From assembly GCA_019309545.1 (NCBI GenBank), contig JAFDGA010000004.1, positions 1-64,000 of the forward strand: DNA of 64,000 nucleotides. Direction: 5' to 3'. Origin of the DNA: Deltaproteobacteria bacterium (GTDB lineage: Bacteria > Desulfobacterota > Desulfobaccia > Desulfobaccales > Desulfobaccaceae). The notes below the pieces were generated by a model. That model was not told the DNA's origin. It made no database searches and worked only from the letters and a program-made list of their open reading frames with translations. The position numbers and the translations under genes were made by a program. Below, in pieces: positions 53,416 through 56,278 of the stretch. Each line of letters begins with the position of its first letter. Within the stretch, counting starts at the first letter, position 1.

Positions 53416-54468
53416 ATGACCGGCAGTCCTTTTCCTGCCACTATGGCTGGACCTCCTCACCTGGAAAAAATTCTGATCTGGCACCAGGGCGCGCTGGGAG
53501 ATCTTCTCCTGTCCGGGCCTGCCCTCCAAGCGTTGGCTGCCCATTACCCTAAAGCCCGCTTCACCCTCCTGGGTTCGCCAGCCCGCCTGGCCCTGTTGGC
53601 CGCTACTTTACCGGTTGACGCCATCTGGGACAGTCAGCGGGCGGATTGGGCCTACCTGTTCCTGCCGGACACGCCCCTGCCTGAGCGCCTGCGCGGCTTG
53701 CTGGCCGACTTTGACCTGGCGGTGATTTTTAGCCCTCGACCCCATCCCCAGATTACCGAACGCCTGGGGCAAGGGGGGATCAAAGACAGCCTCTGGATTC
53801 CTAGTTTTCCCCTTCAGGATCGCATCCCGGTGCCCTGCTTGCAGGCCCGGCACCTAGCATTAAGGGGGATAAAACCCCCTTCCGGCCCTTTCCAATTGCT
53901 CATCTCTCCCAAGGAACAACTGGTGGCCCAGGCTCATTATGAATCCCAGGGTGGCCAAGGGCCGGGTCTGTCGCCCTGGGTCGCCCTGGCCCCCGGCAGC
54001 GGCCATCGACGGAAAAACTGGCCTTTGGAAAATTATCGGGGACTGGCCTGCCAACTACAAGCAACTTTCAAGGCCCGGGTGCTGTGGATAACCGGGGCGG
54101 CTGAGGCGGAATTTCTGGGCGAAATTAAGACCCTGGCCCAGGCCGCCGGACATTATCTGCTCAACGACCTGCCTTTGCCAAGCCTGGCCGCCTACCTGAG
54201 CCTTTGCCAATTGTATATCGGCGGCGACAGTGGCATCACCCATCTGGCCACAGCTGTCCGGCGACCAGCGGTGCTGGCCCTGTTTGGCCCTACCGATCCC
54301 GTAATTTGGGCCCCTCCCGGGAACCAGGTTAAAGTTATAACTTCATCGCGGGATTGCGCCCCCTGTACAAAGGGCCGGGAAATATTGTGTTCGGATGCCC
54401 TCTGTCTCCGAGATCTAACCATCGGCCAGGTTTTGGCTGCGGCCCGCACCGCCCTGAATCATGGGTAA
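53416..54468 (+). CDS. Glycosyltransferase family 9 (heptosyltransferase-like)
   Basis: The GT9 features are visible: an N-terminal GALGDLLLSGPALQALAAHYP, APGSGHRRKNWPLENYRGLA, and the nucleotide-sugar block GGDSGITHLATAVRRPAVLALFGPTDP. Such enzymes add heptose or related sugars to the LPS core on the inner-membrane cytoplasmic face. Four cysteines near the C-terminus (DCAPCTKGREILCSDALCL) are also seen in some GT9 enzymes. The acceptor is unknown. The start is ATG 53416; ATG 53443 inside is an alternative. Confidence 0.9.
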   Translation: MTGSPFPATMAGPPHLEKILIWHQGALGDLLLSGPALQALAAHYPKARFTLLGSPARLALLAATLPVDAIWDSQRADWAYLFLPDTPLPERLRGLLADFDLAVIFSPRPHPQITERLGQGGIKDSLWIPSFPLQDRIPVPCLQARHLALRGIKPPSGPFQLLISPKEQLVAQAHYESQGGQGPGLSPWVALAPGSGHRRKNWPLENYRGLACQLQATFKARVLWITGAAEAEFLGEIKTLAQAAGHYLLNDLPLPSLAAYLSLCQLYIGGDSGITHLATAVRRPAVLALFGPTDPVIWAPPGNQVKVITSSRDCAPCTKGREILCSDALCLRDLTIGQVLAAARTALNHG

Positions 54469-54689: not shown

Positions 54690-54996
54690 AATATTTTCTC
54701 CGATAATAACATCTGGCCCTTACCCAATCTATTCTGCTCTAGATCCTGGTGTGCGGTTTGACAACTTCGGGGCTTCTGTCGGGTTTCATTATTTGAATTT
54801 TATTGCGGCCTGACCAGGATTTTGTATCATAAAATTCTCTGTTTTTTTAACACGATAAACATAATCACAGGGTTCTTCGCTTTTTCTGGTTTAAAAATTT
54901 GAACTGGCGATCGAGGTCGGTGGGCGACCGCTAACCGGTAAAAGGCCCGGCTGAACTGATTATGATTTAGAGATTTATGATTTCCAACCGGAGGTT

Positions 54997-55010
54997 GGCA
55001 CAATTACTGC
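54997..55010 (+). promoter_or_regulatory. Sigma54-like promoter (GG-N10-GC)
   Basis: TTGGCACAATTACTGC gives GG at 54997-54998 and GC at 55009-55010, ten bases apart, close to the consensus TGGCAC-N5-TTGC. A start site would be near 55022. GGTCG-GTGGG-CGACC at 54915-54929 could be an upstream activator site. No downstream gene lies on this strand before the terminator at 55110. Confidence 0.5.
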
Positions 55011-55019
55011 ATAAAAAGT

Positions 55020-55110
55020 AATAAAAGAGCGAGATTCCCCCTTAATCAAAGCTCATATACCATTTTCTCCTTTCTCCTAAGGTCGGGCTTCCCCCTCCCG
55101 ACCTTTTTTA
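55020..55110 (+). ncRNA. Candidate sigma54-dependent small RNA with CU-rich stretch
   Basis: About 90 bases lie between the predicted sigma54 start and a strong plus-strand intrinsic terminator. The middle holds TTCTCCTTTCTCC (55065-55077), which could pair with Shine-Dalgarno sequences. No open reading frame with a ribosome site lies on the plus strand. The same bases read on the minus strand look like a ribosome-binding site before a 5-codon frame, so an antisense element is an alternative. Confidence 0.45.
55079..55110 (+). terminator. Intrinsic terminator of the candidate small RNA
   Basis: A 9-bp stem (AAGGTCGGG with CCCGACCTT), loop of nine, then a T-run (55104-55109). No plus-strand gene precedes it. 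Confidence 0.8.
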
Positions 55111-55138: not shown

Positions 55139-55672
55139 TCAATCGGGGCGGAAAAGATATACTCCGGTCAGGTAGCGGTAATATTGTTGATAATCCAGGC
55201 CGTAGCCCACCACAAAATCATCGGCGATCTCAAAGCCCCGATAAGCCAGGGGCAGGGGCACAATCCGGCGTTGGGGACGGTCTAGCAGGGTGCAGATGCG
55301 GACGCTGGCCGGGCCCCGGGCCGCCAGGGTGCGGACCAGATAACCCAGGGTGAGGCCAGTATCAACAATATCCTCAACAATCAGCAGGTGGCGGCCGGTC
55401 AACTCTTCATCCAGATCTTTAACCAGGCGCACTGCCCCTTTTTGGCGTTCACCGGCCTGATAGCTGGTGATAGCCAGGAAATCCACGGTCACCGGGATAG
55501 TCAGACAGCGCAGCAGATCAGCCAGAAAAAGCACCGACCCTTTCAGAATGCCAACCAGGGTCAGGTCCTGATCGCGGTAGTCCTGTGAGATAGCCGTCCC
55601 CAATTCCACCACCCGGGCATGAATGGCCTCCGGCGGCAGCAACACTTGTAACAAGGTCCCCGGCGGCTTCAT
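55139..55672 (-). CDS. hpt: Hypoxanthine phosphoribosyltransferase
   Basis: A type I phosphoribosyltransferase with the PRPP loop LIVEDIVDTGLTLGYL, an active-site hood ITSYQAGER and the purine-contacting FVVGYGLDY. Length is 177 aa. It salvages hypoxanthine and guanine. It starts right behind the stop of the nuclease-like gene, as the third gene of the nagZ operon. Confidence 0.95.
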   Translation of the reverse strand: MKPPGTLLQVLLPPEAIHARVVELGTAISQDYRDQDLTLVGILKGSVLFLADLLRCLTIPVTVDFLAITSYQAGERQKGAVRLVKDLDEELTGRHLLIVEDIVDTGLTLGYLVRTLAARGPASVRICTLLDRPQRRIVPLPLAYRGFEIADDFVVGYGLDYQQYYRYLTGVYLFRPD

Positions 55673-56278
55673 TTATCCAGAGTTAGCGGCCGGGGCCAGG
55701 CCATATTTTTCTAACAGCCATTGGTAATCTTTGCCATAAAAAAGACGGATGGGGTGCTGCGGATAAATCTCCCGAAACAACCGCACCTTGCGATTCTTTT
55801 TGGTGACCAGGCTCTGCCTCATGGTGGTTAACTCAATATACAGATGATAGTCCACCAGATAGAAATCCGGGGTGAAACTTTCCACCACATTACCCTCCTC
55901 ATCCCAGGCGATGGGAAAGGTATGGGGTTCATACAGCCACTTAATCCGATAAAAATCGAGTAGCCGGGCAAATTCGACTTCACTGTCATTGGCAAACCGC
56001 TGGGCCTGAGCCAGCTGATAATCTTCCTGACTCTCATAATCCTCCAGCAAACCCTCGGCCGAGAGTTTGGCTTCAAGGCGGTTCAAGGCCCGTTTCAGTT
56101 CCGGTAACTGGGCCAGCGGCATTCGGACCAGCGGCACGGCTTCCTGCAGAGGCCCTCCCTGGCTGACGGATTGCAATTCCACCCAGGAGGTTTTATCCTG
56201 ACGACGCAAAGTGATCAGCAATTCCCGTTGCTCGCTGACCGCAAAGCGATGAATCAGTTCAGTTTCAGAATCAGTCAA
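55673..56278 (-). CDS. PC4-like plus PD-(D/E)XK nuclease-like protein of unknown function
   Basis: The first ~95 residues (REQLLITLRRQDKTSWVELQS region, LPELKRALNRLE) resemble the PC4/p15 single-strand DNA-binding fold. The C-terminal half resembles a PD-(D/E)XK nuclease: SEVEFARLLDFYRIKWLYEP, FTPDFYLVDYHLYIELTT and KKNRKVRLFREIYP. The usual lysine of ExK is replaced by threonine (ELT), though a nearby KK pair could substitute. Nuclease activity is uncertain. It overlaps nagZ by 4 bp and abuts hpt, so it shares their transcript. Confidence 0.6.
   Translation of the reverse strand: MTDSETELIHRFAVSEQRELLITLRRQDKTSWVELQSVSQGGPLQEAVPLVRMPLAQLPELKRALNRLEAKLSAEGLLEDYESQEDYQLAQAQRFANDSEVEFARLLDFYRIKWLYEPHTFPIAWDEEGNVVESFTPDFYLVDYHLYIELTTMRQSLVTKKNRKVRLFREIYPQHPIRLFYGKDYQWLLEKYGLAPAANSG

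Follow-up and report, generated by a model that had tools for sequence, protein, structure and literature searches.

The question raised by this locus is whether an intergenic stretch encodes a small RNA (sRNA), and if so what switches it on and what it acts upon. The window, that is, the whole 64,000-nucleotide stretch of Desulfobaccales DNA that was analysed (contig JAFDGA010000004.1), contains a complete σ54 transcription unit at positions 54888–55109, consisting of an enhancer palindrome, a promoter, an RNA of approximately 88 nt and a terminator.

Organisation of the transcription unit

The promoter, TTGGCACAATTACTGCAT, lies at 54995–55012 (+), with the −24 GG at 54997–54998 and the −12 GC at 55009–55010, exactly where an earlier reading made without database searches (the sequence-only reading) had claimed a GG-N10-GC promoter, at 54997–55010. 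GG and GC are 10 bases apart within TGGCAY-N5-TTGCW, as the σ54 pattern requires, and rpoN is present in the genome. The predicted transcript occupies 55022–55109 (+), with a start at 55020–55023 by the σ54 rule and an end at the U-run; there are no RNA data for it. We found no plus-strand gene overlapping the unit, and the same reading had also reported none.

The upstream flank is a GT9 heptosyltransferase-like gene (53416–54468, +), and downstream come hpt (55139–55672, −), a gene for an unknown protein of 201 amino acids (55673–56278, −) and a nagZ-like GH3 gene. The 201-residue protein is conserved in the genus and has no match in Pfam or NCBIfam; its pattern TPDFYL...YIELT...KK resembles the PD-(D/E)XK nuclease core.

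Predicted RNA structure and the anti-Shine-Dalgarno core

The RNA folds with a z score of −3.3 relative to dinucleotide shuffles, and is predicted to consist of three elements. A 5′ hairpin at 55027–55054 (+) pairs GAGC with GCUC and GAUU with AAUC around a CCCCCUU loop. It is followed by a single-stranded core, UUUUCUCCUUUCUCC, at 55063–55077 (+), which has a mean unpaired probability of 97.7% and includes the CU stretch TTCTCCTTTCTCC that had been pointed out at 55065–55077. The unit ends in a strong intrinsic terminator at 55079–55109 (+), in which a nine-pair stem (55079–55087 with 55097–55105) encloses the C-rich loop CUUCCCCCU and is followed by a run of U's; a plus-strand terminator had been predicted at this end of the segment, and the alignments show compensatory changes in it.

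The core resembles CACCUCCUUUCU, the 3′ end of 16S rRNA. In the predicted fold the core is an unpaired stretch complementary to Shine-Dalgarno sites, which is what is expected of an anti-Shine-Dalgarno sRNA. UCUCC and its flanks are conserved among the copies that were read, related cores are present in sRNAs of other families, and each RNA exposes several C-rich elements. The simplest reading of the core is that it blocks Shine-Dalgarno sites, where both the pairing and the resulting translational repression are inferred.

Conservation within the Desulfobaccales

A BLASTN search with 141 bases of the element gave matches in all 28 other Desulfobaccales genomes (29/29 with its own), usually in at least two places in each; the usual copy number is two or three per genome. 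Outside the order only one genome had a BLASTN match with E < 0.001, and its locus (L032) shows no sRNA. We read 56 copies from 28 genomes. TGG(C/T)A at −24, N7 and TGCA at −12 occur with identical spacing in 56/56; the expression used to collect these copies already demanded most of the promoter pattern. A BLAST-anchored reading, which made no such demand, found the same promoter in nearly all of the copies that it covers fully.

The copies fall into two classes. In class A a long hairpin capped by a CCCACAUCCCCCC loop is joined through the linker CCAUUUUCUCCUUUCACC to a terminator whose loop is CCUCCCCC. The long hairpin, of which the shorter 5′ hairpin in the window is the counterpart, is lacking in class B. 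The window copy has the class B neighbourhood (GT9 gene before, nagZ after), and the second sRNA copy in the same genome (L002) lies in the class A gene neighbourhood. In the class A alignment 94.6% of cells pair, compared to only 27–43% for slid structures, and the helices carry compensatory changes: both partners have changed in 11 pairs, where shuffles average 4.6 and 0/500 of them reach the observed number. Covariation was one of the checks that the sequence-only reading had proposed, and conservation among related genomes was the test that it had set; promoter, enhancer, core and terminator are all conserved there, which supports its view of a σ54-driven sRNA. A plus-strand peptide in class A (M...KVPTSPP) was considered and rejected, as its frame is stopped early in many copies and lacks a ribosome site.

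The analysis confirms that the locus encodes a real sRNA that had not been catalogued earlier; its transcription is inferred, and no transcript has been measured. Rfam 15 gave no family above the gathering score in the window, and searches at gathering and relaxed thresholds likewise yielded no score beyond a gathering value. Rfam does not include the family.

The enhancer palindrome

The palindrome GGTTTAAAAATTTGAACT (54888–54905, +; consensus GGTACAA-N4-TTGTACC) is a predicted site for an NtrC-type response regulator, whose binding is inferred. In the upstream regions of the copies it is located 80–115 bases before the −24 element, and it scores at least 10/14 in 53/56 copies, compared to 4.6% of shuffles. 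An upstream enhancer is expected at about −80 to −150 and to serve an AAA+ activator, and here this is met by a sequence motif only. A different dyad, at 54915–54929, had been suggested as the activator site. It exists, as a perfect 5-bp dyad (GGTCG-N5-CGACC) between the enhancer and the promoter, but the same-genus copies (L004, L005) do not show it; the conserved palindrome is the one at 54888–54905.

In the window's own genome the degenerate pattern has a single exact site, the one in the window, and in the 29 genomes scanned such sites occur almost only at sRNA loci. When the palindrome and the σ54 promoter were searched together with the RNA left unconstrained, we found 18 sites in 17/395 genomes, and none with a control pattern; all 18 precede an RNA of UCUCC/UUCCUCC type with a terminator, that is, an anti-Shine-Dalgarno sRNA. 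The same palindrome stands ahead of regulator-linked sRNAs in several families.

One exception (L077, G006:C82:6675–6692) has the palindrome, an IHF-like site and a σ54 promoter, but the downstream sequence is unlike the sRNA family; it may be a decayed copy, or else a further target of the regulator. IHF-like sites are present in 8/56 copies, versus 0.4 in shuffles; for the window copy such a site was sought and is not evident.

The regulator and its linkage to the sRNA

When 297 genomes were searched with Infernal, other families yielded weak matches. On reading, these have σ54 promoters and, in a Desulfarculaceae-type family, palindromes; in the scan of named genomes, many of the matches listed are chance matches. 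Some of the distant sRNAs adjoin the 3′ side of a gene for an NtrC-type response regulator. The window's genome has 13 σ54 activators of NtrC type, among which the best counterpart of the sRNA-linked regulators is G000:C6:44032–45399 (L276:6030–7400, −), with 63–65% identity over the whole alignable length; the other 12 have 39–58% identity and clearly lower bit scores. It consists of receiver (REC), AAA+ and Fis-type domains. A kinase gene lies approximately 850 bases upstream, in whose product we found no recognised sensor domain.

Homologs of this regulator (E ≤ 1e-140) occur in 124/297 genomes, nearly always one in each. An automatic rule that required a σ54 promoter, a CUCC core and a terminator was satisfied behind the homologs in 24 of 90 downstream regions, representing ten families; the opposite-strand, reversed and shuffled controls gave no case. 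Three further families with the module (f7, f63, f85) were recognised by eye. In Desulfobaccales and Desulfarculaceae the sRNA lies elsewhere and not behind the regulator; it is also missing behind most of the more distant homologs, and many families with a homolog have no sRNA behind the regulator gene. The sRNA core is conserved across much of Desulfobacterota, often with the same regulator gene adjoining. Since the regulator is not adjacent in Desulfobaccales, the link there rests on orthology and on the shared palindrome; the G000:C6 regulator is likely to be the activator of the window sRNA, its binding and phosphorylation being inferred.

The recognition helix of the regulator is near-invariant within Desulfobaccales. 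GAFTGA is the near-universal σ54-contact motif; the Desulfobaccales regulators that were read have GAFTHA in this loop (GAFTNA in G011), and the distant ortholog L303 retains GAFTGA. At six loci (L099, L166, L162, L238, L243 and L249) the palindrome is replaced by direct repeats of TCCGGATTATG type, and the σ54 promoter and RNA core are retained. L099 and L249 are probably one genome, and the regulator is readable only in L099 and L166, where its C-terminus is unlike the Fis helix, the DNA-binding domain having been replaced. The repeats begin directly after the stop codon of the domain-swapped regulator gene. At three other loci (L132, L135, L310) tandem σ54 anti-Shine-Dalgarno sRNAs, different or near-identical, are found behind the same regulator gene.

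Proposed mechanism and alternative explanations

The best reading, to which we assign a probability of roughly 0.7, is a chain that runs from a kinase through a response regulator and σ54 to an Hfq-independent sRNA blocking Shine-Dalgarno sites. The sensor kinase would phosphorylate the REC-AAA-Fis regulator, which would bind the palindrome and remodel σ54-RNA polymerase at the promoter, and a trans-acting RNA of about 88 nt ending at 55109 would be made. The exposed CU-rich core and C-rich loops are proposed to imitate the 16S rRNA 3′ end, and the sRNA to pair with the Shine-Dalgarno regions of selected mRNAs, lowering their translation without Hfq. The module would be ancient, with the sRNA directly behind the regulator gene in many Desulfobacterota families; in Desulfobaccales it would have become unlinked and split into class A and class B loci, with the window holding a class B position. 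This reading builds on the observed promoter and palindrome motifs, the RNA structure, its conservation, the regulator linkage and the lack of a detectable Hfq: PF17209 has no match in the window's genome, which is 99% complete, and the same search was positive in five control genomes. Against it stand the GAFTHA/GAFTNA variant, the unlinked regulator, the many families whose regulator homolog has no sRNA behind it, the absence of a conserved extended target from six genomes and the lack of expression data; the CU-rich stretch might also serve a protein. Its final step, the anti-Shine-Dalgarno action, is an inference.

A single long conserved target was sought with the pattern GAAAGGAGAAAATGGTAT (up to 3 mismatches, six genomes) and rejected, as the pattern found mainly the sRNAs themselves; among nine other sites with this pattern that were checked, a long open frame follows at one only (L383). 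The absence of a long specific target common to the six genomes is in keeping with a short seed that serves several targets. It can also be taken to favour a different role, in which the RNA is real and σ54-driven but acts as a decoy, its CU- and C-rich elements binding an RNA-binding protein or acting as a sponge for G-rich RNAs. CrcZ and GlmY are precedents for such behaviour, and the multiple copies per genome and the several exposed C-rich elements of each RNA would suit it. We nevertheless consider a decoy unlikely, though still a serious competitor, because only the CUCC/UCUCC core just before the terminator, which is like the 16S 3′ end, is retained by every family, while the loops vary; no C-rich-binding regulator has been identified, although none was sought.

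The identity of the activator is a separate matter. The same sRNA could be driven by another of the 13 activators in the genome, a suggestion that gains something from the unlinked regulator in Desulfobaccales and from the GAFTHA variant of the G000:C6 protein. We think this improbable, since in other families the activators that adjoin the sRNA are orthologous to that very protein, the palindrome is common to linked and unlinked sRNAs, and regulator domain and enhancer have been swapped together. Least credible of all is a function on the minus strand, where the sequence-only reading had noted, as its own alternative, a ribosome site for a tiny frame; this frame, MVYEL, might be that of a leader peptide. 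GGAGAAAGGAGAAAATG is indeed a good ribosome site on that strand, but the frame leads no gene, the conserved promoter and terminator sit on the plus strand, and many sister copies have TTG, ACG or ATA in place of the ATG; we reject the frame because its start codon is not conserved.

An sRNA acting by the chain from kinase to Shine-Dalgarno site would give Desulfobacterota, where almost no trans-acting sRNA is understood and where no Hfq was detected in the window's genome, a phylum-wide sRNA regulator with a likely activator and an identified enhancer. About a dozen families provide natural variants, including one in which activator domain and enhancer have changed together, and the predictions are therefore testable in culturable sulfate reducers.

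Comparison with known systems

Qrr1-5 with LuxO in Vibrio, GlmY/GlmZ with GlrR, and CrcZ with CbrB are σ54-dependent, activator-controlled and often multi-copy sRNAs. They differ from the present family in sequence, enhancer and phylum, and they either need Hfq or RapZ or titrate them, whereas Hfq was not found in the window's genome. NfeR1 (PMC10746234), mmgR (RF00519) and the CcsR/cuckoo RNAs of alphaproteobacteria are likewise short, with CU-rich unpaired anti-Shine-Dalgarno stretches and terminators, but no shared activator is known. The only match of the mmgR model is in one distant relative, with E = 0.08 and 26.9 bits, short of the gathering score of 41.

The closest layout is that of Pxr of Myxococcus xanthus, described from myxobacteria only, an sRNA directly downstream of the NtrC-like response regulator PxrR (SpdR, Nla19) with the kinase PxrK (SpdS); it has a predicted σ54 promoter, an upstream enhancer and a 3′ stem-loop, there are paralogs in some species, and the M. 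xanthus genome lacks hfq (PMC5684412, PMC5568312, PMC10217877). The arrangement of kinase, response regulator, σ54 promoter and sRNA is like the one proposed here; in other Desulfobacterota families the sRNA is found behind the regulator, and in Desulfobaccales it stands apart from the regulator, which lies elsewhere with a kinase gene nearby. The published Pxr probe, from its sequence alone, implies a C-rich SL1 (CCCCCCACCCCUUC), as here, but the primer-derived Pxr 3′ sequence lacks UUUUCUCCUUUC before the last stem-loop. The resemblance appears to be one of layout, and membership in one family is left open. More speculatively, and with the odds against it, one ancestral kinase-regulator-σ54-sRNA module, inherited in both Desulfobacterota and Myxococcota, could act as an Hfq-free translation brake copying the ribosomal anti-Shine-Dalgarno sequence, with Pxr, the gatekeeper of myxobacterial development, as its specialised descendant. 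If the family were related to Pxr, for which no direct target is known as yet, this would hint at how Pxr arose and at possible binding of ribosome sites by its C-rich loop.

Within the sulfate reducers, Dv_sRNA2 of Desulfovibrio vulgaris lies downstream of the response regulator DVU0679 and is bound by it (PMC3333781); its membership is not established, and the likeness is that of a response regulator controlling the sRNA next to it.
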